Positions 6,599-22,443 of a stretch of 64,000 nucleotides of DNA are shown here, piece by piece. The notes under the pieces were generated by a model. That model saw only the letters and a list, made by a program, of their open reading frames with translations. It did not search any database and was not told the origin of the DNA. Each line of letters opens with the position of its first letter. The stretch's first letter is position 1. Location: the NCBI GenBank assembly GCA_003671025.1, contig QWPW01000016.1, forward strand, positions 1 through 64,000, written 5' to 3'. The stretch is from Planctomycetota bacterium. GTDB taxonomy: Bacteria > Planctomycetota > Phycisphaerae > Phycisphaerales > SM1A02. Both the position numbers and the translations under genes were made by a program.

Positions 6599-8899
6599 TC
6601 ACGCGAGATAGCAGCGCTGCGTGTATTCGCTCACCATGCGATGCGTCGAGAAGAAATCAGGAATCGTGGCCGCGCTCGTGAGTGCGCGCTTGATCCATTT
6701 GCGCGGCAGCTCGTCGCGCCCTCGATCGTAAAACTCAGGAACGATCTGCTTCTCCAGCAACGCGTACAACTTGGTGGCATCGCGCGTGTCGCGTGCCACC
6801 GCGGCGCCATGCGCGTCAGCTTCGTTGAACCCTTCATCGACCGCGCTGCCGATGCACCAACCGTTGGCGATCGCGCCGGTTCCGTCAACACCTGAGTCCT
6901 TGAAGCCTTCGGGCCACCATCCATCGAGAATCGAGCAATTCAATCCGCCGTGCGGAGGCGCTTTCATTCCGCTGGTGCCGCTCGCTTCGTGCGGACGAAT
7001 GGGATTGTTGAGCCACACATCGCAGCCAGACACCAATGCTCGTCCAACTTCCATGTCGTACTCTTCGATCAACACGACCTTGCCACGCAATGAAGGATGG
7101 CGCGTCATTTCGAAGACTTGCTGCGCGTGTTCTTGTCCACCCAAATCGCGCGGATGTGCTTTGCCTGCGAAGACAAATTGCACGGGACGCTTCGCGTTGT
7201 CCACGATCTTGGCCAATCGCGCGAGGTCGTGAAAGATCAGTGGCGCGCGCTTGTAGGTGGCGAAGCGTCGCGCAAATCCGATAGTGAGCGCGTCGGGATC
7301 AAGCATGGTCGCGCTCGCGTTGATGCCCGATGGATCTTCGCCCCGCCGCTGGGACGCACGCGCAAGTCGTTCGCGTGCGAAGCGCACCAACGAGCCGCGC
7401 AGGGTCGCGCGTAACTGCCAAAACGCCGCGGGATCTGCGTTGATCGCGCGCTTCCATCCGCGATTACGTGGCGTGTTCGCGCAGGGATCGAAGCCGCACG
7501 CCGAATTCCAAAACGTCTTCGCGCGCGGATCCAACCACGTCGCGGTATGAATACCGTTGGTCACATGTTCGATCGGGACATCAGTGGCCGAGACCTTCGC
7601 GCGCTTGACTCCGTACACCGACTTCCACATCTGCCGACTGACTTCGCCGTGCAACTTCGCGACCGCGTTGACTTTCGCCGCAAGTCGTAGACAGAGCACG
7701 GTCATGCATGCGGGTTCCTTTGCATCCTCGGGATGTTCGCGTGCGAGCGACTCAAGCTCGAGTCGCGAGATACCGCCCTTCGCTAAGACCCACGCGAGCT
7801 CGTGACAGAGCATGTCCATTCCGTATCGATCGTGTCCCGCCGCGACTGGCGTGTGGGTGGTGAACACCGTGCGCGCACGCACCGATTGCACCGCGTCGGC
7901 ATGCGACATGCCCTTCGCGCGGAACTCGGACAACATCTCCAACGCCGCAAACGCCGCGTGTCCTTCATTCAAATGGATCTTGCTGGGCGTGATGCCTAAT
8001 GCGCGCAATGCCAGCATGCCGCCAACGCCAAGCAACACTTGTTGACGCATGCGTAAATGCGGCTCGCCTTTGTACAAGCCTTCGGTGAGTGCGCGATCTT
8101 CGGGACGATTCTCCGCGAGATCCGCGTCGAGCAAATAGACTTTGGTTCGTCCCACATCCATGCGCAGCACTTTCGCGCGCACGAGCGATGAGCCCGAATG
8201 GTTGCCACCACTGGTGCCACCAATCAAACATTCGATCACGACGCCCGTGTCGACAATCGGCATGGTGCCGCGGTCGTACACGGGATAGAGCACCTTGGTC
8301 GATCCATCCGCACCGAACTGTTGCAGGTAGTAACCATGACGGTAGTAGAGGCCGACCGCGACCAAGGGAATGCCGAGATCACTCGCGCTCTTGAGATGGT
8401 CGCCCGCGAGCACTCCCAGTCCGCCCGAGTACTGCTGCACCGATTCGTGAATCGCATATTCCGAGCAAAAATAAGCAATACACGCGTGCGGATGCTGCGC
8501 CGCGCATGTTTGATCCCACCATGATTTCGATTCCATCGCGGCGGTCAACGCCGCGCGCGCGTTGATGAGCGCAGTGCGAAATCCTGGTTCTTCGCACGCG
8601 GCGGAGAGCGTGGCTGGACCGCTATACGCCAACACCGAAAGCGGCGAGTGCTTGGTCGCGTGCCACAGAACGGGATCAAGTGCGGCGAATGGTCGCTGCG
8701 CGATTTCATTCCACGACCACCACAGATTCATCGCCAACGCGCGCAATTGCGTGCGCGCTTCATCGGGAGTGATCGGCGCCACTTGTACGGCAACTGGCGT
8801 CTTCGGGGTTGCGTTGCGAGTCGATGTCTTCGCGCGTGGCGCGGGCGCGACGGACTTGCTGGGCATCGATTTTTTCACCACGCGTTTCGTTGGAGGCAT
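6599..8899 (-). CDS. glgP: Alpha-glucan (glycogen/maltodextrin) phosphorylase
   Basis: Pyridoxal-phosphate enzyme of 766 residues that removes glucose-1-phosphate from the non-reducing end of alpha-1,4-glucans. It belongs to the shorter bacterial type: an N-terminal DUF3417-like region (M-N-L-W-W-S-W-N-E, about 65), then the phosphorylase core with Y-F-C-S-E-Y-A-I-H-E-S and Y-S-G-G-L-G-V-L-A-G-D-H, and the PLP-binding lysine in the E-A-S-G-T-S-G-M-K-A motif (about 643), followed by N-G-G-L-N-like P-H-G-G-L-N-C-S-I-L-D-G-W-W. A Lys/Ala-rich tail of about 45 residues precedes the core. The ATG at 8899 is preferred over a GTG at 8923. It is the last gene of the amylase-malQ-glgP operon, 51 bases after malQ. 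Confidence 0.93.
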   Translation of the reverse strand: MPPTKRVVKKSMPSKSVAPAPRAKTSTRNATPKTPVAVQVAPITPDEARTQLRALAMNLWWSWNEIAQRPFAALDPVLWHATKHSPLSVLAYSGPATLSAACEEPGFRTALINARAALTAAMESKSWWDQTCAAQHPHACIAYFCSEYAIHESVQQYSGGLGVLAGDHLKSASDLGIPLVAVGLYYRHGYYLQQFGADGSTKVLYPVYDRGTMPIVDTGVVIECLIGGTSGGNHSGSSLVRAKVLRMDVGRTKVYLLDADLAENRPEDRALTEGLYKGEPHLRMRQQVLLGVGGMLALRALGITPSKIHLNEGHAAFAALEMLSEFRAKGMSHADAVQSVRARTVFTTHTPVAAGHDRYGMDMLCHELAWVLAKGGISRLELESLAREHPEDAKEPACMTVLCLRLAAKVNAVAKLHGEVSRQMWKSVYGVKRAKVSATDVPIEHVTNGIHTATWLDPRAKTFWNSACGFDPCANTPRNRGWKRAINADPAAFWQLRATLRGSLVRFARERLARASQRRGEDPSGINASATMLDPDALTIGFARRFATYKRAPLIFHDLARLAKIVDNAKRPVQFVFAGKAHPRDLGGQEHAQQVFEMTRHPSLRGKVVLIEEYDMEVGRALVSGCDVWLNNPIRPHEASGTSGMKAPPHGGLNCSILDGWWPEGFKDSGVDGTGAIANGWCIGSAVDEGFNEADAHGAAVARDTRDATKLYALLEKQIVPEFYDRGRDELPRKWIKRALTSAATIPDFFSTHRMVSEYTQRCYLA

Positions 8900-8950
8900 T
8901 GCAGAGAAGATAGTCGAACACACACGCCCTGCGCACCACCATTGACGCGC

Positions 8951-10399
8951 TCACATGCGCCCTGTCGCCTCGATCAACGCGTGCATCGCCGTCGCCAGCG
9001 AGTGACTCGCGGCCTTTGCATCCATGCGCCAACTCCATTGCCCTGCGCTCTGTCCAGGAAGATTCATGCGCGCGGACTTTCCTAGGCCGAGGATGTCTTG
9101 CATGGGAAGCACGGCCATCATCGCGGGCGATGCGAGCACGATGCGATTCATCACTTCATGAATGGGTCCGCGGCCGGCGTAGGCGCGAAACCGCGCGCGC
9201 TGCGTGGCATCGCGACCACTCCACCACTGCACTGAAGTTTCATTGTCGTGCGTGCCCGAGTAGGCCACGCAACGTGTGGGGTGATTGTGCGGCAAATCGC
9301 TTGATTTCCCGCTCCAAAATGCATTTTGCACGATGCGCAAACCTGCAAGTCCAAAGTCATCACGCAACGCGGCGACCGCGGGCGTGACCGCACCAAGATC
9401 TTCAGCGATGAGCGGCAGCGATGGAAACTTCTTCGCCAGCGCGGTGAGTAACGCGCGCCCTGGCGCTTTGCGCCATCGACCGACGCGCGCATCAGACGCG
9501 CCAAAGGGAATCTCATACGCCTGCGTCAATCCAATGAAGTGATCGATGCGCACGAGATCAAAACGTTCCGCCGCGCAAGCAATGCGCGCGGTCCACCACG
9601 CAAACTTGCTGGCGATGTGCGCATCCCATGCGTAATGCGGATGTCCCCACAGTTGTCCATCCGCCGAAAAATCGTCCGGAGGCACACCAGTCAGCACTGT
9701 GGGCTGGCCATCTTTACGCAAACGAAACAAAGGAGCGTTGGCGCGCGCGTCGGCGCTGTCTGCGGTCACGAAGATGGGCACATCACCTACGAGTGCAATC
9801 CCGCGCGATTGGCAATGCGCACGCAGCTGCGCCCACTGCGACGCGAGTTCAAACTGAATCCAACTATGCATCGCGCGCGCGGCGCTGTCGTCGGACGCGC
9901 CATGATCAAGCTCATGATCAAGCCCATGATCTAACCACGAAGTCAGCCACGCATTGCGCGCCACGAATTGTCGATAGCGCGCGCTGCGAAAGCCTCCCTT
10001 GCGCGCGAAGACTTGCGCAGCCTTGGCGTAACGCTCCATGCGAAATGCGCGCGAAGCAGGGAAATCGCAGGCGTTTCCGCTCATCGCGCGTCGCAGGCGC
10101 GGAGCCACCACCAGATCGCTCGCGCGCAACAGACCTTGCTTGACCAACGGTTGCAGCGCGAGAAATGTCGGCTCAATCGCAAAGCTCGAAGGCGATGAAT
10201 ACGGACTGTCGCCAAATCCTGTGGGACCGATGGGAAGCATTTGCCACACGGAAATCCCTGCGCGTGCAAGCCAATCCGCAAACGCGTGTGCGTTGCTGCC
10301 GAGGTCGCCGCTGCCATGCGCGCCAGGCAAACTCGTGATGTGCATGAGCACACCCGCGCGTCGAGTGGTGAGCAAGGGATGCGGAGGACGCTGTTGCAT
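8951..10399 (-). CDS. malQ: 4-alpha-glucanotransferase (amylomaltase)
   Basis: GH77 enzyme of 482 residues that transfers glucan chains between maltodextrins and releases glucose. Visible motifs are L-P-G-A-H-G-S-G-D-L-G (N-terminal), Y-S-S-P-S-S-F-A, the nucleophile Asp in R-I-D-H-F-I-G-L (about 286), the acid/base Glu in A-E-D-L-G (about 333) and the transition-state Asp in S-G-T-H-D-N-E-T-S (about 386). The length is normal for the bacterial type. A 12 bp triple repeat near codon 160 encodes L-D-H-G-L-D-H-E-L-D-H-G, a local insertion. It lies 33 bases after the amylase stop and before glgP, in the same operon. Cytoplasmic. Confidence 0.94.
   Translation of the reverse strand: MQQRPPHPLLTTRRAGVLMHITSLPGAHGSGDLGSNAHAFADWLARAGISVWQMLPIGPTGFGDSPYSSPSSFAIEPTFLALQPLVKQGLLRASDLVVAPRLRRAMSGNACDFPASRAFRMERYAKAAQVFARKGGFRSARYRQFVARNAWLTSWLDHGLDHELDHGASDDSAARAMHSWIQFELASQWAQLRAHCQSRGIALVGDVPIFVTADSADARANAPLFRLRKDGQPTVLTGVPPDDFSADGQLWGHPHYAWDAHIASKFAWWTARIACAAERFDLVRIDHFIGLTQAYEIPFGASDARVGRWRKAPGRALLTALAKKFPSLPLIAEDLGAVTPAVAALRDDFGLAGLRIVQNAFWSGKSSDLPHNHPTRCVAYSGTHDNETSVQWWSGRDATQRARFRAYAGRGPIHEVMNRIVLASPAMMAVLPMQDILGLGKSARMNLPGQSAGQWSWRMDAKAASHSLATAMHALIEATGRM
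9901..9936 (-). repeat. 3 x 12 bp in-frame repeat inside malQ
   Basis: Three 12 bp units (catgatcaagct type) at 9901-9912, 9913-9924 and 9925-9936, the last one diverged. On the coding strand they give three L-D-H-(G/E) units in MalQ. The period keeps the reading frame. Confidence 0.88.
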
Positions 10400-10432: not shown

Positions 10433-12916
10433 TTATCGCCGCGTTCCCACGAGAACTCGTGCGCCCAACGCGGGGACGATGACCGGCACACCGTCCACGA
10501 GAGGTGCGCGCGTGGCATCGCTCGGCGCAGAAACCTGCGTCTTTCCGCTGACAAACGCAGTGTTCCAGTTCCACCCTTGCACTTCGCGCGCGTCGATGGT
10601 GATGGGTTGCGTCTGCTCCGAGCCATTGAGCAGGACCAGCACGCGTTGGTCACCGTGCTCGCGCGCGAAGATCCACACGTCCTGCGCATCGAGTGTGGCC
10701 ACGCTGCGAAATGAACCCACTTGCAACGCGGGATGATCTCTGCGCAGCGCGATCATCGCGCGGTACTGCCCCAAGTGCGACGCATCGACGCGATCAAGTG
10801 GGTTGTCATACGGCTCAAGATCTTGCCACAGCATCGGCTTGCGAGAGACCGGATCATCGGAGCCCCACATGCCCGCTTCATCGCCGTACCAAATCATCGG
10901 TGCGCCGATGTAGGTCATTTGCAACAGCGCCAACAATCGCTGCCGTTGAAAGTCTTCTGCTGCAGGCTTACTTCCGTCATAGCGCGAGCCGTCGCGATCG
11001 TGATTGTTCTGGTCGTAGCCTCGATCAGGATTCTTGAGCATCGAGGCCACGCGATCAGTGTCATGGCTGTCGAGCAGGTTCATCAACGCGTAACTCGCTT
11101 GCGCGGGATAGGCCAAGCGCAACAGCGCGAGTCTGCGATCAAGCTCGCTCACGGTGATCTTGTCCGTCTGATTACCAATCCATGCCAACGCCGCGGTCGC
11201 GAAGGGATAGTTCATCACCGCGTCAAAGGTTGTTCCGTCGAACCACTCATCGGCGCGCGTCCACACTTCGCCGCTGATGAATGCGTCGGGGTTGATCGAC
11301 TTCACCAGCGTGCGCCACTGCTGCCAAAACGGTTTGGGGATTTCGTTGGGAACATCGAGCCGCCAACCATCGACGCCATCCGATGGATCGCCATCACCGT
11401 TGGGATCCATCCAACGACGCGTCACCGCGAAGAGATGGTCGCGCACTTGGTCACTGGCAAAACCACTGGAATTCTTGGCGAAAACGGGCAGTTGTCCAAA
11501 TCCAGCCCAACCGTCATAGACGAAAGGATCGAACGACTTCACGGCAAACCACGAAGCGAAACGCGAGCTCTTTCCCTGCGCACGAAGATCGAGAAAGGCA
11601 AGGTGTTGATCACCCACATGATTGAACACGCCGTCGATGATGAGCTTCATCCCCTGCTGGTGAAACTCGGCGATGAGCGCAAGGAATGCGCGATCACTCG
11701 CGGTCCAAGTCCATGAGCTCGGCGTCGCAAGATCTTCCTGCGCGGACGCGATTTCGAAATCACCTTTGACTCCAAAGTTGTCGTCGATGTGCACGAAACT
11801 GCGCGCGTCGTACTTGTGGTGACTCGCGCCTTCGAAGACGGGATTCAAGTACACCGCAGTCACACCGAGGTCGCGCAAGTATGGAATCGATGCTTGCAGT
11901 CCAGTGATGTCGCCGCCGTATTGACGCGTGAACGCGAACCACTGCCACATCGTTTGACCGTCGCGTCCTTCCCATGCGCTGGGCATCAACCAATCGCTGC
12001 GCCACGGCCGCGTCGGGTCGGGATCATTGCTCGCGTCTCCGTTGCGAAATCGATCGAGCATGATCTGGTACCAGACTGCGTGCTTGGTCCACTCAGGAGT
12101 GCGCAAACCCATCATTTCCTGCGGGGAAAGCGCAAATTCCTGCGCGTCGCGCCACGATGCGTCGCCATCATGCAGGGTGAACGAATACGTCGCGGGCTCA
12201 GTGAGCGCGGGAACCGTCGCTTCCCACCAATCAAACGGAATCAACTGAGCGACTCGTTGCATCGGAATCGACAACGCGCCGTCCTTGGTGTGGTCGATGT
12301 CGAGACTCACGCTGGTCACATCATCCATGCGCGTGCGATAGCGCACGCGTGTCGCCATGCTGCCGCTGTTGTCGACAGCACCCTGCAGCCACATCGCTCG
12401 TTGCGGATCATGCACGCACGCCGCGGCATCAACCATTCCGTCGCCAAGCGCACAGGGTTCACTCGCGTCTTGCGTCGATGAATCTAGCGTCAAAACGCTA
12501 TTGACCCCGCCTTGCCCGTCATCTTCGACGCGCGTGTTTGCAGGGTCATTCAGCCACGCGTTTCCATCGACGACAAACTTGTACAAGTGTGTTGCATCAG
12601 GCAACTCGAGGGTGACGCGGTAGACGCCATCGCCCATGCGCACCATCGGCGTGAGGACGGGGTTCCATCCGTTGAACGAGCCCGCCAATCCCACCGTCGT
12701 ACTTTGGCTCGGCGATGCAATTTTGCTCGACAAAACAAGGGAAAACGTCACTTGCCAATGATCCGCCTTGGATGAAATCGCTTCGATGGAACGAGGCAGC
12801 ATCGGGGCGACGATCAGTGACTCCGCGCCACGATCAAGCGGGCGCGTCACCGACTCACTCGCGCACGAGGGCACAAGAAACATTGCGGCCGCGCTGAGCA
12901 TCACGATTGAACGCAT
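10433..12916 (-). CDS. GH13 alpha-amylase family lipoprotein (cyclomaltodextrinase/neopullulanase-like)
   Basis: Exported glucan hydrolase of about 827 residues. The ATG at 12916 gives a signal peptide with lipobox V-P-S-C, so surface anchoring is likely. Order of parts: a CBM48/AMPK-like domain (G-L-A-G-S-F-N-G-W-N-P and Y-K-F-V-V-D-G, about 75-135); a second beta domain like the N domain of cyclomaltodextrinases (about 165-260); the GH13 barrel (Y-Q-I-M-L-D-R-F, then I-D-G-V-F-N-H-V-G) with nucleophile Asp in W-R-L-D-V-P (about 517), acid/base Glu in S-G-E-V-W (about 547) and Asp in S-H-D-T-D-R (about 618); and a C-terminal beta domain. First gene of the amylase-malQ-glgP operon, divergent from a sugar ABC importer. 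Exact substrate is unknown. Confidence 0.9.
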   Translation of the reverse strand: MRSIVMLSAAAMFLVPSCASESVTRPLDRGAESLIVAPMLPRSIEAISSKADHWQVTFSLVLSSKIASPSQSTTVGLAGSFNGWNPVLTPMVRMGDGVYRVTLELPDATHLYKFVVDGNAWLNDPANTRVEDDGQGGVNSVLTLDSSTQDASEPCALGDGMVDAAACVHDPQRAMWLQGAVDNSGSMATRVRYRTRMDDVTSVSLDIDHTKDGALSIPMQRVAQLIPFDWWEATVPALTEPATYSFTLHDGDASWRDAQEFALSPQEMMGLRTPEWTKHAVWYQIMLDRFRNGDASNDPDPTRPWRSDWLMPSAWEGRDGQTMWQWFAFTRQYGGDITGLQASIPYLRDLGVTAVYLNPVFEGASHHKYDARSFVHIDDNFGVKGDFEIASAQEDLATPSSWTWTASDRAFLALIAEFHQQGMKLIIDGVFNHVGDQHLAFLDLRAQGKSSRFASWFAVKSFDPFVYDGWAGFGQLPVFAKNSSGFASDQVRDHLFAVTRRWMDPNGDGDPSDGVDGWRLDVPNEIPKPFWQQWRTLVKSINPDAFISGEVWTRADEWFDGTTFDAVMNYPFATAALAWIGNQTDKITVSELDRRLALLRLAYPAQASYALMNLLDSHDTDRVASMLKNPDRGYDQNNHDRDGSRYDGSKPAAEDFQRQRLLALLQMTYIGAPMIWYGDEAGMWGSDDPVSRKPMLWQDLEPYDNPLDRVDASHLGQYRAMIALRRDHPALQVGSFRSVATLDAQDVWIFAREHGDQRVLVLLNGSEQTQPITIDAREVQGWNWNTAFVSGKTQVSAPSDATRAPLVDGVPVIVPALGARVLVGTRR

Positions 12917-12939
12917 CGCTTCATTTATACTCGCCATCG
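12917..12939. promoter_or_regulatory. Compact divergent promoter region of the glucan locus
   Basis: Only 23 bases separate the preferred amylase start (12916, minus) from the ATG at 12940 of the transporter gene (plus). The centre holds tttatact, which reads as a TATACT -10 box on the plus strand and TATAAA on the minus strand. Transcripts from these would be nearly leaderless, or the transporter may start at the later ATG at 12982. No matching -35 box or operator is obvious. Confidence 0.33.
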
Positions 12940-15333
12940 ATGATCTCAAGCGCATCTACAACGCGATGGACGGTTGGTCGCATGACGCGTCTGATGCTGG
13001 TCGTCATCGCCTCGTTGTTGGTGGTCGCGGCGTTTACCCGAGTTGCCTATCGCGGCATCACCGCTGCAAAACTCAACACGGGCGAAATCGAACTCACCGT
13101 GATGCACTGGTCGGGCGAAGGCGGACAAGAAGAAGATCGCATCGTCGAAGATTCGCTTCATGCGTTCGAAGCGGCGAATCCCGGAGTGCGCGTCAAGCGT
13201 CTCAACCCTGGCGACGCGGGCAGTTTCTACACCAAGTTGCAAACGATGATGGCTGCAGGAGACGCGCCTGACGTGTTCTATGTCGGCTACGAGGGACTGG
13301 CAAACTTCGCGAAGTTGGATCTGCTGCTGCCACTCGACAAGTTCGTTTCGCGCGAGAAAACCAGCGGTTTGAGCGATGCACTCGACCTCGATGCGTTCTA
13401 TCCGCAGACCGTCGATGCGTTTCGTTTCGACGGTCATCGCGTTGGGCAGGGAACGCTGTACGGCATTCCCAAAGACTTCACCACCGTCGGCTTCTACTGC
13501 AACAAGGATCTCTTTCGCGCTGCGGGCGTTCCCTTTCCTACGAGCGAGTGGACGTGGGATGAGTACATCGCCGCCGCACGCACGTTGGCCGCGTTGCCGG
13601 GAATCACCGGCAGCGAGTTCGTGACATGGCCCGTGATGGTGCGCACGTATTTGCGCACGCACGGGTGCGAAGTCATCAGCGACGATCTCGAATCCATTCG
13701 CGTGCAAGAGCCTGCGACGATCGCCGCACTGGAAACACTGCGTGCGTGGCGTCACGATGAAGTCAACACGCTCACCAGCGGCAAGAGCAAGATTGCCACG
13801 GGCGCGAGCGTGTTCCTCGGGGGCAAGGTCGCGATGGCGGGACCGTTTGGACGATGGGTGGTGCCGAGTTACCGCAACATTCCATCTTCGGAAAATGGTG
13901 GTTTTGACTGGGATTTCGTGCCACTTCCGCGCGGCAGCACGCGCGCGAATTGCGTGCTCACTGTGAGTTGGTCCATCGATAAGAACACGCGTCACCCCGA
14001 GGAATCATGGAAGTTAGTGAAGTGGCTCACTGACGCACGCAGTCAATCGGCGAACGCGCGGCTGGGCCTCGCCATCCCCACCATGAAGTCCATCGCAGAG
14101 AGTCCTGCGTTTCTCGACGCATCGTTGCCGCCGGCGAACAATCAGGGCTACCTCGATGCGATCCCTGACGCGACGGTGATCGGATGGCCTGCCGACGCGA
14201 CGTTTGAGCGCATTCTTGGATCCACCATGGATCAAGGACTCAAGTCTGGCGACCTGACGATGACCCAAGCGATTGCGCAGTTTCAATCGAGCTGGAACAC
14301 GCATGTGCAATTTGTTCCCGGTGGAGTGAATCCTCCGCGCGTGCCATGGAACATGTTGAGCGCGGGCGCGTTGTCGTTGTTGGGGTTGATCATCGCGGGC
14401 GCGGCGTGGTTGTGGTGGCGCGGGTCGAGCAGTCGCAATGCGCGCGCCGAAGAACGCGCGGGATTTCTCCTCGCATCGCCGTGGTTGCTGGGATTCCTGG
14501 TTTTCATGGCGTTTCCGATCGCGATGTCCTTCGTGCTCTCGCTCACCAACTGGCGCGGAAACGGCCCGCTCTCGAGTGCTGATTGGGTGGGCGTGGACAA
14601 CTACGCGCAGTTGCTGTGGCGCGACGCGCGATTTCACACCGCCGCAAAGGTGACTGCGTACTACGCGTTGCTTGCGGTTCCGCTGGGACAAGTGTTGGCG
14701 TTGGGCGCTGCAATCGTCATGACTCAGAAAGTTCGCGGCATCGCACTCTTTCGCGCCGCGTGGTATCTCCCGAGCGTGCTTGCGGGCGTGGGCGTTTCGA
14801 TTTTGTGGCGATGGATCTTTGACTCGCAAGGCGGTCTGATCAATCGCGTGCTCGAAAGTGTGGGCATCCCTGGCCCCGAGTGGTTTGGCAAAGATGCCGC
14901 GCTGTTTGGTCCACCTGCGTTTGCGATCATGAGTTGTTGGCTGGTGGGCGGATCGATGATGATTTATCTCGCGGGCTTGCAGCAGATCCCGCGCGAGTTG
15001 TACGAAGCCGCGCACATCGATGGCGCGAATTCATGGCGACGCTTTCGCACCATCACTCTGCCCATGCTCTCGCCGGTGATTCTGTTCAACCTGATCATGG
15101 CAGTCATCGCCAGCTTCCAAGTCTTCACGCAAGCATTTGTGATGACCGGCGGCGAGCCGGGCGATCTCACGCGCTTCTACGTGCTCTACCTCTTTAACAA
15201 AGCGTTCGAGCTCTACGACATGGGCTACGCCAGTGCGATGGCGTGGATTCTGCTCGTGGTTGTGTTGGTGTTCACCGCGTTGATCCTGCGCAGCAGTGCA
15301 CGCATGGTCTATTACGAATCGCTGCGAAAATAG
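12940..15333 (+). CDS. Sugar ABC importer: solute-binding protein fused to MalF-type permease
   Basis: Single 797-residue protein combining two normally separate parts. An N-terminal membrane segment (about 26-48) is followed by an extracytoplasmic solute-binding domain of family 1 type (about 55-455; for example V-M-H-W-S-G-E-G-G, G-D-A-P-D-V-F-Y-V, W-T-W-D-E-Y-I-A-A-A). After a helix near 468-490 comes a MalF/UgpA-like permease of six helices starting A-G-F-L-L-A-S-P-W-L-L-G-F and carrying the EAA loop E-L-Y-E-A-A-H-I-D-G-A (about 685) that docks on the ATPase. The binding domain is thus tethered to the pore. It precedes a MalG-like permease (1-base gap) and a MalK-like ATPase. Maltodextrin is the inferred substrate from the divergent amylase operon. 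An ATG at 12982 is an alternative start. Confidence 0.9.
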   Translation: MISSASTTRWTVGRMTRLMLVVIASLLVVAAFTRVAYRGITAAKLNTGEIELTVMHWSGEGGQEEDRIVEDSLHAFEAANPGVRVKRLNPGDAGSFYTKLQTMMAAGDAPDVFYVGYEGLANFAKLDLLLPLDKFVSREKTSGLSDALDLDAFYPQTVDAFRFDGHRVGQGTLYGIPKDFTTVGFYCNKDLFRAAGVPFPTSEWTWDEYIAAARTLAALPGITGSEFVTWPVMVRTYLRTHGCEVISDDLESIRVQEPATIAALETLRAWRHDEVNTLTSGKSKIATGASVFLGGKVAMAGPFGRWVVPSYRNIPSSENGGFDWDFVPLPRGSTRANCVLTVSWSIDKNTRHPEESWKLVKWLTDARSQSANARLGLAIPTMKSIAESPAFLDASLPPANNQGYLDAIPDATVIGWPADATFERILGSTMDQGLKSGDLTMTQAIAQFQSSWNTHVQFVPGGVNPPRVPWNMLSAGALSLLGLIIAGAAWLWWRGSSSRNARAEERAGFLLASPWLLGFLVFMAFPIAMSFVLSLTNWRGNGPLSSADWVGVDNYAQLLWRDARFHTAAKVTAYYALLAVPLGQVLALGAAIVMTQKVRGIALFRAAWYLPSVLAGVGVSILWRWIFDSQGGLINRVLESVGIPGPEWFGKDAALFGPPAFAIMSCWLVGGSMMIYLAGLQQIPRELYEAAHIDGANSWRRFRTITLPMLSPVILFNLIMAVIASFQVFTQAFVMTGGEPGDLTRFYVLYLFNKAFELYDMGYASAMAWILLVVVLVFTALILRSSARMVYYESLRK

Positions 15334-15334
15334 C

Positions 15335-16201
15335 ATGAAACGACGATTGCTCGCTGATTCGATCTTGTGGTTCGTGCTCATTGTGGGCACGGTGATGTTT
15401 GTATTTCCGCTGTGGTGGATGACGGTGGTGAGCCTCGAGACTCCGCAGCGCGCCGAGGCTGCCATCACCGGCAGCGCGGGCATCGCGCTCTATCCGCCCA
15501 ACCCACAAGTGGCCAACTACGCTCAGGCGATTCGCGAAACCGGCAGCACGCCGTGGATGGGTTTCGTCGACGCGCTCTCCAACTCGATCGTCATCACTGT
15601 GGTGGTTGTGCTCGCAACGGTGCTCTCTTCGAGTCTTGTGGGATACGCGTTAGCACGACTGCGCTTTCGTGGAAGTCGCGCGATGTTTCTGGTCATGCTC
15701 GCGACCATGATGTTGCCCGGTCAGGTGACGATGATTCCGCTCTTCTTGTTGTTCCGCGAGTTCGGATGGATCGACACCATCTTGCCCTTGGTCGTGCCAG
15801 CGTTTTTTGGCAACGCGTTTTTCATCTTCATGTATCGACAGTTCATCGCGCAGATCCCTGAGTCGCTGGTGGAAGCGGCGCGCATCGATGGTCTCGGTCA
15901 CCTCGCGATTTGGTGGCGCATCATTCTTCCGCTCTGTCGTCCCGTCACCGCGATTTGCGCGGTCTTCACTTTCATCGGAACGTGGAATGATTTTCTCGCG
16001 CCGCTGATCTATCTCCACTCGGATGAGCAAGCAACGCTCGCAGTCGCGCTCAACGGCTTCAAGAATCAATACGGCGGATTGGAAGATGTGCATCTGCTCA
16101 TGGCGCTTTCGGTGCTCACCATGATTCCTTGCATTGTGCTGTTTATCGCGGCGCAGAAGGCATTTGTCGAAGGGCTCGCGAGCGGAGCGGTCAAGGGTTA
16201 A
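15335..16201 (+). CDS. Carbohydrate ABC transporter permease (MalG-like)
   Basis: Inner-membrane permease of 288 residues with six predicted helices. The EAA docking loop reads E-S-L-V-E-A-A-R-I-D-G-L-G (about 178-190), followed by I-I-L-P-L-C-R-P. The ATG at 15335 lies one base after the upstream stop codon (15331-15333), a tight coupling; an upstream in-frame extension to 15296 would overlap that gene and is rejected. It should pair with the permease half of the preceding fusion protein to form the pore, with the downstream MalK-type ATPase. Confidence 0.93.
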   Translation: MKRRLLADSILWFVLIVGTVMFVFPLWWMTVVSLETPQRAEAAITGSAGIALYPPNPQVANYAQAIRETGSTPWMGFVDALSNSIVITVVVVLATVLSSSLVGYALARLRFRGSRAMFLVMLATMMLPGQVTMIPLFLLFREFGWIDTILPLVVPAFFGNAFFIFMYRQFIAQIPESLVEAARIDGLGHLAIWWRIILPLCRPVTAICAVFTFIGTWNDFLAPLIYLHSDEQATLAVALNGFKNQYGGLEDVHLLMALSVLTMIPCIVLFIAAQKAFVEGLASGAVKG

Positions 16202-16293: not shown

Positions 16294-17487
16294 ATGGCAA
16301 CAGTCACACTCGCTCAAGTCAGCAAGATGTACGACGGTGGCGTGCGCGCCGTTGATGCGATCGACCTCGCCATTAACCATGGCGAATTCTGCGTACTCGT
16401 TGGTCCCTCCGGTTGCGGCAAGAGCACGACGCTGCGCATGATCGCGGGTCTTGAAGAGATCACCGACGGTGTTCTCGAGATCGATGGCGCGCGCGTGAAT
16501 GATCTTCCTGCGAAAGACCGCGACATCGCGTTCGTCTTTCAGAACTACGCGCTCTATCCACACTTGACCGTGGCACAGAACGTTGCGTTTGGTTTGGAGC
16601 AGCGACGCGCGCACGGCAATCCCTTGCGCGCGATGCTCACTGGTCAACGCGACGCCCGCGGGCGCGAGAGTGCGCACATCGCGCAACGCGTGCGCGAGGT
16701 ATCGTCCACGTTAGGCCTCGATGAACTGCTGACGCGCTATCCGCGCGAACTCTCGGGTGGACAACGACAACGCGTCGCCGTCGGGCGTGCCATCGCGCGC
16801 AACCCCAAGGTGTTCTTGTTCGACGAGCCACTCTCGAATCTCGATGCACGCCTGCGCCTCGAAACACGCACGCAATTGCGTCTGCTTCATCGACGCCTGA
16901 GCGCCACCATCGTCTACGTCACTCATGATCAGGAAGAGGCGATGACGCTCGCGGACCGACTGGTGGTGATGCATCAAGGGCGCGTGCAGCAGAACTCAAC
17001 CGCGCAGATTGCCTATGAAACCCCTGCAAATCGCTTCGTCGCGGCCTTCATTGGCACGCCGCCGATGAATCTCATCGATGGCCATTTCGCGCACGGGACA
17101 TTTGAGTCTCACGGCGTGTCACTTCCGCTCCCCGCGCGTTGGCCCTCGTTGATCAATCAATCGAAACCATGCGCGCTGGGATTTCGACCCGATCGCGCTC
17201 GCATCGAGCGCGCGACCGCGCACGACGGTGCACACTCTGTGTCCGCTGGTGCAAAGATCAACGCGCGTGTCGTCGCAGTCGAACGACTCGGCGACCGTAC
17301 CGACATCGCGATGGAAGTCGCAAGAGAGAGCGCGATGAACGGCGGACAGACCCGACTCGTCGCGCGCGTGAACGCCGATGAAGCCGAGCACATGCGTGAA
17401 GGTGACGAGGTTCGAGTTCTCGTCGATACCGCGCATGTGCATCTGTTTGAGCCTGGTGAGTGCGGCGCGCGTATCACTGCGTCGTGA
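16294..17487 (+). CDS. Sugar ABC transporter ATP-binding protein (MalK/UgpC type)
   Basis: ATPase of 397 residues that powers the upstream permeases. Walker A is G-P-S-G-C-G-K-S-T (about 37), the Q-loop lies in F-V-F-Q-N-Y-A-L-Y-P, the ABC signature is L-S-G-G-Q-R-Q-R-V (about 152), Walker B is V-F-L-F-D-E-P-L-S-N-L-D, and the switch His is in Y-V-T-H-D-Q-E-E-A. A C-terminal regulatory/TOBE region (about 235-397) is present, as in MalK. An insertion of about 25 residues (A-H-G-N-P-L-R-A-M-L-T-G-Q) sits between the Q-loop and the signature. A ribosome binding site (ggag) precedes the ATG. The last 14 bases overlap the convergent PAP2 gene tail-to-tail. Confidence 0.93.
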   Translation: MATVTLAQVSKMYDGGVRAVDAIDLAINHGEFCVLVGPSGCGKSTTLRMIAGLEEITDGVLEIDGARVNDLPAKDRDIAFVFQNYALYPHLTVAQNVAFGLEQRRAHGNPLRAMLTGQRDARGRESAHIAQRVREVSSTLGLDELLTRYPRELSGGQRQRVAVGRAIARNPKVFLFDEPLSNLDARLRLETRTQLRLLHRRLSATIVYVTHDQEEAMTLADRLVVMHQGRVQQNSTAQIAYETPANRFVAAFIGTPPMNLIDGHFAHGTFESHGVSLPLPARWPSLINQSKPCALGFRPDRARIERATAHDGAHSVSAGAKINARVVAVERLGDRTDIAMEVARESAMNGGQTRLVARVNADEAEHMREGDEVRVLVDTAHVHLFEPGECGARITAS

Positions 17488-19773: not shown

Positions 19774-22443
19774 TCAACTCCATGCATTCAAGAGCAGTGC
19801 CAAGTCCGCTCCACCGACGATGCTGTCGCCGTTGAGGTCAGCAGCGCAACCGCTGCAACTTCCCCACGCGTTGAGCAACGCCGCAAGATCGGCGCCGTTG
19901 ACCACGCCGTCGCCGTTGATGTCACCCATCTGAACTTCACACACATCAGGAATGAGGTTGCCATTGCTGTCGCTCGCGCTCGGTGGTGCGATCACGATGG
20001 CGGTCGCGCTGGGCGCATCACTGGGATAAATGCGATAGGTGCGTTCGGTGTATCCCGTGCCGAGGTTGTAGCCGTTCACGGTCGAGCTGCTGTTGGCGCT
20101 TGAGGCCAACACTGCGCGACCATCTCCCGAAGCGCACATCGAGTGTGGCGACGTCAGCATCGCGCCGTTCTCCACGTCCCACACGCCCAGCGCAACACCA
20201 GCGGCGCTGTAGCGCAGGATGCCTTGCTCGGTTGCGCTGCCCACGAGGAACGAGCCATCGCTCTGCGCAAACATGCCGCGAAACTGCGGTGCTGCGGCCG
20301 TCGCGTCCACCAATACGCTCGCGCTGTTCACTGGCCACGCATGACGACTGATCACTCCGCCCGAATACGAAACCAACGCATCGCGCGTGCCATCAGTGAG
20401 CGTGCGAAACACGAGATCGCGCGCGTCGCTGCTCAGGCCAGTCGCCACGAAAGTCGCAGAAATCGTGCCGTTTGCGGCGAGAAGCAGCACTCGGCCATCA
20501 GTGAGCAACACCGCGAGTTGACCACTTGGCGCGAGCGCGATCGCACTCGCCGCTGCAGGAAGTTCCACCGACCACACACTCGCCGAAACATCATTCACAC
20601 GATGAAGCGCGTAGATGCGCGTGCCCACGGAGGCGTAGAGACGACCATCGCCACCGATCGCCAAATCGCTCGCAGGCGCGAGCCCGCACGCGACGGTGCG
20701 ACGAACGACACCCGAACGCGGATCGAGTTCACGCAACATCGAGTCGCCAGCGCTGGCCACCCAACGCGAGCGCGAACCTTGCAAGGCGACGAAATCAGTG
20801 ACGCCACTTCCCGTGCATGACTCGCATGCATCGAGGCGGCCATCGCGCGAGATGTCACGGTTCATGTCTGCACGAATGTCTACGGAATCCGCGATGCCAT
20901 TGCCATCGCAATCAACTTCGCACGCATCTAATACGAAGTCGCCGTTGTGGTCGATGGTCGCATCGAGTGCGATCTCCAATGAGTCTGGCGAACCGTTCGC
21001 GTTGCAATCGGCTTCGCATACATCAGGATGAAGATCATTGTCCAAGTCAACGAGCAGCCCGAGCGCGATCTCTACGGGGTCGGTCACTCCGTTGCTGTTG
21101 CAGTCTTGGCATGCATCAAGAATGCCATCGCTGTTGCCGTCGAGTGCGCTGTTTCCCGCGATTTCCTCGGCATCCGCGACTCCGTCGTCATCGCAATCGG
21201 TGGCGAGGCACGGCGCGTTCACCAAAAAATTCTCGATGTTCGCCGCGGTAACGCTGTGGAATCGCAAGTCGATGTTAGAGCTCGCGCCTTGCACCACATG
21301 GCAGTAGCTCATGATGGTGCCACGCTCGATCGTTCCACTCGCGCATGCGTCGAGGCCATAGTCATGTGTGTGATAGGTGCCGAGGTTGTGCCCGAGTTCA
21401 TGCGCGAGCACATTGACATCCCAGTTGCCGGGGTTGGTGACGATCGCATCGGCAAATGTTCCGACCATGTACCCGTTCACGGAGTAGCCGTAATCCATGC
21501 ACGCGGCGTTGAGCCACGCCACGCCGCCGTACGGCAAATTGCGGCGGCCGCTGAGGAACGTGAAGAGATCGCGTTGCACTCCTGTGCCGTTCTCATTCCA
21601 GTAGTCGCGAAAGGGACCGAGCGGATCAGAGTCGTTGAAGAGATCCGCCGCGTCGGTTTGCAATCGAACGTAGGAGACGCGAATCGACGCATCGCAATCA
21701 CGGCGATAGATCGCGCTCACAGCGCCGACGAGCGTGCTGAGATACTCAGTCGCGCTGACGGAATCGTGGAAGATGTTGTAGTAGTCGTAGTCGGTGTCGA
21801 TGGCGAGCTCGACCACGCGGCGCGCGCCCGGAGGAACACTGCCAAATCCTGCGACGCCGCCGCTCTCATTGTTGTCATGCACATGTGCGCCGCCACACGA
21901 AGGAACATCAGGCGCGCTGGTGCCGCTGCTGCGCACGAATTCGCAGAGCCCCGCGCACAATCCTGACGACTCGTTGTTGATGCGGCGCATCGTGAAGAGA
22001 CCGCGGCCTTCGCCGAGATCGATGATCGCGTTGACACCAGTCGTACCAATGCCCAAGTACACGCTCGAGTGGTCGACGCCTTCGACAGAGCCTTCGAAGT
22101 GAACAACGCCATGCAGCGCATTGGTGAGCGTCGCCGAGAGCGCGCGTTTCGAAACACCACTCTCCACGCGCGCGTCACTCGTCACCGCGCGAACACGATG
22201 GAGTGACAGGGTCACGAGGCCAAGATCGGCCACCGAAATTTGCACACGCGCGCGCTCTGTCTCATGCGCAAGCAACGCACTGTGGAGCGATGCAGCGATT
22301 TCGAATCCGCGATCGTGCCCGACAAACCATTCGGTCGGCAGCGCGGCGACTTCCGCACGCTCTGCGCGCGGCGCGATCAACGTCGGCTTGATTTCAGGAG
22401 CGGCCAGCAGCGCCATCAACACGCAAGGAATCGAAATGAGCAT
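19774..22443 (-). CDS. Secreted reprolysin-like zinc metalloprotease with dockerin-like tail
   Basis: Exported protease of 889 residues. A short signal peptide starts the protein, followed by a propeptide-like region (about 20-205) and a metzincin catalytic domain: zinc motif H-E-L-G-H-N-L-G-T-Y-H (about 348) and a Met-turn in G-T-I-M-S-Y-C-H (about 378). Next come Asp-rich repeats resembling thrombospondin type-3 calcium-binding units (D-C-D-D-D-G-V-A-D, C-N-S-N-G-V-T-D, D-C-D-G-N-G-I-A-D; about 400-545), then a beta-propeller-like region (about 555-830), and a paired dockerin-like tail (G-D-I-N-G-D-G-V-V-N-G-A-D-L and A-D-L-N-G-D-S-I-V-G-G-A-D-L, each ending L-L-N-A-W). Calcium binding by the tail is expected. 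Target unknown. Confidence 0.9.
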   Translation of the reverse strand: MLISIPCVLMALLAAPEIKPTLIAPRAERAEVAALPTEWFVGHDRGFEIAASLHSALLAHETERARVQISVADLGLVTLSLHRVRAVTSDARVESGVSKRALSATLTNALHGVVHFEGSVEGVDHSSVYLGIGTTGVNAIIDLGEGRGLFTMRRINNESSGLCAGLCEFVRSSGTSAPDVPSCGGAHVHDNNESGGVAGFGSVPPGARRVVELAIDTDYDYYNIFHDSVSATEYLSTLVGAVSAIYRRDCDASIRVSYVRLQTDAADLFNDSDPLGPFRDYWNENGTGVQRDLFTFLSGRRNLPYGGVAWLNAACMDYGYSVNGYMVGTFADAIVTNPGNWDVNVLAHELGHNLGTYHTHDYGLDACASGTIERGTIMSYCHVVQGASSNIDLRFHSVTAANIENFLVNAPCLATDCDDDGVADAEEIAGNSALDGNSDGILDACQDCNSNGVTDPVEIALGLLVDLDNDLHPDVCEADCNANGSPDSLEIALDATIDHNGDFVLDACEVDCDGNGIADSVDIRADMNRDISRDGRLDACESCTGSGVTDFVALQGSRSRWVASAGDSMLRELDPRSGVVRRTVACGLAPASDLAIGGDGRLYASVGTRIYALHRVNDVSASVWSVELPAAASAIALAPSGQLAVLLTDGRVLLLAANGTISATFVATGLSSDARDLVFRTLTDGTRDALVSYSGGVISRHAWPVNSASVLVDATAAAPQFRGMFAQSDGSFLVGSATEQGILRYSAAGVALGVWDVENGAMLTSPHSMCASGDGRAVLASSANSSSTVNGYNLGTGYTERTYRIYPSDAPSATAIVIAPPSASDSNGNLIPDVCEVQMGDINGDGVVNGADLAALLNAWGSCSGCAADLNGDSIVGGADLALLLNAWS

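Follow-up and report, generated by a model that had tools for sequence, protein, structure and literature searches.

A solute-binding domain fused in frame to a MalF-type permease in a Planctomycetota bacterium, probably part of a malto-oligosaccharide importer with one tethered binding domain

Free binding proteins are normally present in large excess over the importers that they serve, and a sugar importer in which the binding protein forms one chain with the permease is reportedly encoded by Bdellovibrio bacteriovorus. As its title and citing text describe it, this system (Licht et al., 2019, Res Microbiol 170:1–12, cited in PMC9045158 and PMC7756565) is an importer of maltose/maltodextrin in which a single MalE domain is joined to MalF, and in a review that cites it the MalE-MalF fusion is referred to as transport-competent. 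An excerpt of PMC9045158 gives a 30–50-fold excess of maltose-binding protein over importer in E. coli, and excerpts of PMC8276074 and PMC11212667 hold general background only. The protein studied here resembles MalEF-GK2 of Licht et al. (2019) in having one sugar-binding domain in one chain with a MalF-type subunit; within this comparison, which is with title and citing text rather than with sequence, its own features are a binding domain like those of Lmo0181 and AbnE, a SugA-like core and an occurrence in several Planctomycetota families. A sugar importer with a fused binding domain is already known, and the Planctomycetota case extends the theme; the original prediction was mostly right, but its view that such a tether is unusual for sugar importers has to be qualified in the light of this precedent and of the frequency of the fusion in the present lineage. 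Among the matches listed in the open-access full-text literature, no account of fusions in Planctomycetota or Abditibacteriota was recognised.

The permease fold, the EAA loops and a MalK with an OB/TOBE domain are shared with E. coli MalFGK2, whereas the binding protein, free as MalE in that system, is here fused in what would be the position of the TM1-TM2 loop, and the P2 loop is absent. As in E. coli MalF, there are eight helices if the N-terminal one is counted, and the second superposes on MalF TM2 in the predicted model. SugA of the mycobacterial trehalose importer LpqY-SugABC, in which LpqY is a separate lipoprotein, is the closest relative of the permease core among solved structures, but the helix that precedes the core of the fused chain has no match there. 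Binding domains tethered to the permease chain are also described, in the excerpts available, for OpuA and GlnPQ. The binding domain of the present protein, unlike theirs, matches SBP_bac_1 and SBP_bac_8 alone at E ≤ 0.001 in Pfam and not the osmolyte or polar amino-acid families. OpuA and GlnPQ are homodimers with two or four binding domains, in contrast with the single domain that a heterodimer would provide here.

In the window (the whole 64,000-nucleotide stretch of DNA that was analysed), the forward-strand frame from 12907 to 15333 is stop-free throughout in the ORF listing and contains the gene for the fused solute-binding protein and MalF-type permease, located at 12940–15333 (+) from ORF, Pfam and orthologue alignment. 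In-frame ATGs occur at 12940 and 12982, giving proteins of 797 and 783 aa, respectively, with the stop ending at 15333, and the choice of start codon between the two is uncertain. Both Pfam domains are found on the one protein (SBP_bac_1, E 1.5e-38, residues 69–369; BPD_transp_1, E 2.4e-14, residues 604–784), the order along the chain being N-terminal helix, family-1 sugar-binding domain, second helix and six-helix MalF/SugA-type permease. The MalG- and MalK-like partners that had been anticipated are both encoded downstream, the former by a MalG/UgpE-type permease gene of 288 aa with an EAA loop (15335–16201, +; Pfam, NCBIfam, motif scan) and the latter by a MalK/UgpC-type ATPase gene with an OB/TOBE C-terminal domain (16294–17487, +; Pfam, NCBIfam). 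The helical region of this ATPase, which is 397 aa long, seems by eye to be about 20 residues longer than in usual MalK proteins.

Genes of alpha-glucan metabolism lie upstream on the opposite strand, namely a GH13 alpha-amylase-family enzyme with a CBM48/AMPK1_CBM domain, oriented divergently from the fused gene (10433–12955, −; ORF, Pfam, NCBIfam), a GH77 4-alpha-glucanotransferase or MalQ (8951–10399, −; Pfam, NCBIfam) and an alpha-glucan/maltodextrin-type phosphorylase (6599–8923, −; ORF; TIGR02094, E 2.6e-205). Because the divergent GH13 ORF begins at 12955, the longest ORFs of this enzyme and of the fused gene overlap, and therefore the start of one or the other or both must be shorter; later in-frame GH13 ATGs at 12937 and 12916, noted by eye, are likelier starts. 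The two genes thus begin back to back, no more than about 70 bases apart (12916–12982). Close divergent starts of this kind recur at several orthologous loci, which makes it likely that both genes share a regulatory region.

The features of a CUT1 importer were found at this locus: a family-1 sugar-binding protein (SBP_bac_1; fold matches to sugar-binding proteins), two distinct permease subunits, each with an EAA loop (BPD_transp_1 and EAA motifs in both) and a MalK-type ATPase with an OB/TOBE domain (ABC_tran, OB_MalK, TOBE and TOBE_2 above cut-off). The fused protein is most probably the large subunit of EF-G-K2, a heterodimeric type I ABC importer (CUT1 class) that serves malto-oligosaccharides and has one tethered binding domain per complex. 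Gene neighbours and fold together point to maltodextrin as the substrate, and the complex would have a 1:1:2 composition of EF, G and K. It is rather unlikely that the same fused design carries another sugar (an arabino-, trehalose- or other oligosaccharide), the starch genes being mere neighbours. In a profile search the binding domain was nearest by sequence to the arabino-oligosaccharide binder AbnE (E 2.3e-68) and the permease core is nearest to the trehalose permease SugA, but the best fold match of the binding domain was Lmo0181, a cycloalternan-binding protein that binds an alpha-glucan ring (5f7v_A, Z 45.2, rmsd 2.3, 384 aligned), and a phosphorylase gene lies in the window. The next 49 fold matches, at Z 37–41, were mostly sugar-binding proteins, with maltose binders near Z 39–40.

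Neighbouring genes at 35 fused loci, counted among ORFs of at least 150 aa at E 1e-10 on contigs many of which end early, also argue against another sugar, GH13 homologues being present at 26 of them and GH77 homologues at 17. Of these GH13 genes, 22 were on the opposite strand (one a fragment, and one only 25% identical and 2.9 kb away) and 4 on the same strand. A MalG homologue was found beside 34 of the 35 loci, the exception being L084, and a MalK homologue beside 23, a number that includes one fragment and one protein of only 33% identity. Neither GH13 nor GH77 homologues were detected next to L084, L085, L091 and L095. In the window's own genome, two Pfam searches revealed no other family-1 sugar-type binding protein; SBP_bac_1 and SBP_bac_8 agreed in their two matches, one being the fused gene and the other a presumably ferric-type protein of 541 aa. 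Another permease pair of this genome, on contig C1 beside an apparent phosphate-binding protein, was read as Pst phosphate transport; further permease genes of the genome lie on contigs C11, C23 and C67.

For a malto-oligosaccharide importer of this kind, the helix after the binding domain, and perhaps also the helix before it, would hold the domain outside the membrane, such that each complex would have a single binding domain of its own, present at a very high local concentration. By analogy with MalEFGK2, the tethered domain would capture an oligosaccharide, close and dock on its own EF/G cavity, whereupon binding of ATP to the MalK dimer would open the docked domain and release the sugar into the channel. 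After release, the domain would swing back while remaining part of the complex, and a fused binding domain that works without leaving its complex is a reasonable proposal. Oligosaccharides would be made or trimmed by the divergent GH13 enzyme and processed inside the cell by the GH77 enzyme and the phosphorylase. A lineage that conserves one tethered domain per complex, in a class that also has unfused systems, offers natural comparisons concerning the purpose of binding-protein excess, and a one-piece receptor-transporter would be convenient for cryo-EM and single-molecule work.

The position of the binding domain between two membrane segments, part of the original prediction, is supported by an AlphaFold2 model of the full-length protein built from 34 rows and numbered from 12982 (mean pLDDT 83.5, pTM 0.78), which has a helix at 2–30, the binding domain to 443, a 12-residue linker, a helix at 456–480 and a helical core at 485–772. 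In agreement with the predicted ratio of one binding domain per permease chain, a single SBP_bac_1/SBP_bac_8 match and a single BPD_transp_1 match were present. On the forward strand, these elements correspond to an N-terminal hydrophobic helix, a signal anchor or signal peptide without a lipobox (12985–13071, +; AlphaFold2, hydropathy), an extracytoplasmic solute-binding domain of family 1, SBP_bac_1 (13087–14310, +; Pfam, AlphaFold2, match to 5f7v_A), a short proline-rich linker that ends in PW in most aligned orthologues (14311–14346, +; orthologue alignment, AlphaFold2), the second membrane helix or TM2, which tethers the binding domain (14347–14421, +; AlphaFold2), and a permease core of six helices that lacks a P2 loop (14434–15297, +; Pfam, match to SugA 7caf_A). 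The last contains an EAA loop, the expected contact of MalK (15004–15075, +; motif scan). Since this loop has to point towards the ATPase, the binding domain would be placed on the outer, extracytoplasmic side.

Post-synthetic cleavage of the chain within the linker that precedes TM2, which would free the binding protein and leave the 1:1 ratio unfixed, is very unlikely. Indirect indications in its favour come from the N-termini. Those of six of seven fused Abditibacteriota proteins look by eye like cleavable signal peptides (L197 being unclear). Among 77 fused Planctomycetota proteins, 36 show a crude AxA pattern close to where the first helix ends, so that signal cleavage may take place there. 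No lipobox was found in any of these 77, all of them proteins whose first helix was detected; in 9 fused rows the hydropathy scan found no such helix. Cleavage at an N-terminal signal would, however, still leave the TM2 tether, and because the Abditibacteriota N-termini look cleavable, the helix after the binding domain can be regarded as the tether that is shared. Cleavage in the linker is further opposed by the retention, in aligned orthologues, of a hydrophobic helix at this place, mostly preceded by PW, and with a freed domain there would be nothing to preserve either TM2 or the one continuous frame.

Foldseek and VIA matches of the full-length model were dominated by the binding domain. 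For a separate AlphaFold2 model of helix 2 and the core (mean pLDDT 80.8), the best fold match was SugA of LpqY-SugABC (7caf_A, Z 25.6, rmsd 2.3, 277 aligned), and matches to E. coli MalF were at Z 19.6–23.2 (rmsd 4.0–4.7, 290–304 aligned). In the nine MalF rows listed, the alignment starts at model residue 12–18, equivalent to MalF 36–41 and inside model helix 2, whereas SugA alignments start at model residue 40–48, i.e., at the core; these ranges give the first and last aligned residues only, from a model without helix 1 and a program trained with MalF structures. Because the MalF alignments start inside model helix 2, and from the limits of MalF TM2, the tethering helix would stand where MalF TM2 stands, which would place the binding domain at the position of the short TM1-TM2 loop of MalF, with the N-terminal helix probably in the position of MalF TM1. 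No counterpart of the MalF P2 loop was present in this model, residues 15–323 of which span MalF 38–505 (4ki0_F), and only 28 residues separate model helices 40–75 and 104–136, the site of that loop. In NCBIfam, the protein stayed below the cut-offs of the E. coli-type MalF equivalog PRK10999 (68 versus 392 bits) and of UgpA (96.3 versus 335). The permease is therefore of the MalF class, as predicted, but nearer in sequence and fold to SugA/UgpA than to E. coli MalF. According to an excerpt of PMC3654945, eight-helix MalF arose from a six-helix precursor by insertions or fusion, an origin that fits the layout of the fused protein.

The fusion of binding domain to permease was confirmed. One stop-free frame encodes both Pfam domains in one protein, and the stretch 14340–14460, where a missed stop or frameshift would have refuted the original prediction, contains neither and encodes a membrane helix common to aligned orthologues. 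Codon-position differences against 8 orthologues were lowest at position 2 in the binding, junction and permease parts alike, with a weak contrast in the TM2 stretch (0.515/0.369/0.534 at positions 1/2/3). In a whole-genome search, stop-free near full-length matches (residues ≤46 to ≥794 of 797; three candidates scored per genome, the count being a lower bound) were found in at least 50 of the 298 class genomes, that of the window among them, and the same architecture is therefore present in at least 49 other Phycisphaerae; among the matches listed, the proteins of the other 49 were 37–78% identical to the fused protein. A draw of 392 genomes from across the phylum also yielded near full-length one-frame matches (model position ≤61 to ≥780 of 784) in 14 that lie outside the class. 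Because such matches recur in other genomes, and in view of the codon-position signal across the gene, joining of two genes by a missed stop, a frameshift or a chimaeric assembly is practically out of the question and was discarded.

Six further class genomes gave partial or split matches (G269, G106, G080, G216, G047 and G024), that of G080 with an internal stop. Among the best 80 named contig loci, a set that overlaps the 298 class genomes and gives a count that is not independent of theirs, both domains were in one ORF at 35 and not at the other 45, the latter including Bacillota and Chloroflexota. The fused loci were labelled mostly as Planctomycetota or a group thereof, with a few labelled otherwise or unlabelled (L067 as 'Bacteroidia'; L083 and L091 unplaced). 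Besides orthologues, there are further Planctomycetota loci with fused proteins whose binding domains have diverged, and the fused family extends over several families of the phylum. A tethered binding domain is common in this lineage and no oddity. A tblastn match in Paenibacillus (H13), fusion-like at first, proved to be two genes 39 bases apart.

For trees of the permease, rows with at least 380 residues before the permease were scored as fused, and those with a permease match of fewer than 255 residues or more than 93% identical (ungapped) to a kept row were dropped. In a tree of 156 rows, fused proteins alone make up clade A, to which the window's protein belongs (70 rows), and likewise clade B (16 rows); in a tree of 166 rows, support was 96 for clade A, 77 for clade B and 100 for the seven fused Abditibacteriota rows (L192, L195, L197–L200 and L203). 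Independent fusion in clades A and B was considered and withdrawn, placement of A and B together being not rejected (p-AU 0.653) and even 7.65 log units better, and the fusion may have had a single origin in Planctomycetota. Either tree contains at least five changes of the fused/unfused label, with L168, cut by a contig end, counted as fused. In Abditibacteriota (class of the genome concerned), 28 of 28 genomes gave matches at E ≤ 1e-60, mostly to the permease alone, and of ten loci retrieved six were fused and four contained two genes, L192 being the seventh fused case.

Some MalG partners of other fused importers contain an extracytoplasmic insert of about 230–370 residues between the first two helices (L041, L045, L048, L051 and L055–L059; L051 belongs to clade A and L055 is not a tree row). 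By a simple motif, which allowed the spacing to be measured in 54 of 69 rows of clade A, 6 of 16 of clade B, 18 of 25 unfused Planctomycetota and 26 of 42 other unfused rows, 230–350 residues separate these helices in the six clade B rows as opposed to about 47 in most of clade A, where outliers of 183 and 356 occur. In five partners scanned, the insert had no Pfam match beyond the permease domain, and a five-row profile had no sequence match in the PDB. Some unfused loci show wide spacing too (5 of 18 in Planctomycetota at ≥161; 5 of 26 elsewhere at ≥159), as does L051 in clade A, and it therefore does not distinguish fused systems. The wide conserved distribution of the fusion, the position of its binding domain and the modified MalG partner in clade B are the points worth keeping.

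Taken further, Planctomycetota and Abditibacteriota might repeatedly have made or inherited an importer with one binding domain at the MalF TM1-TM2 loop, the domain having been swapped or having diverged many times for different sugars, with the MalG of clade B also bearing a large extracytoplasmic domain; this proposal is tentative and somewhat less probable than its opposite. If true, it would represent a general alternative to the strategy of excess free binding protein, and clade B would have an importer in which both permease chains bear extracytoplasmic domains.

Elsewhere in the window, at 19774–22443 (−), a large protein is encoded in which a metallopeptidase-like HELGHNLG motif, calcium-repeat-like stretches and a dockerin-like C-terminus were noted by eye.
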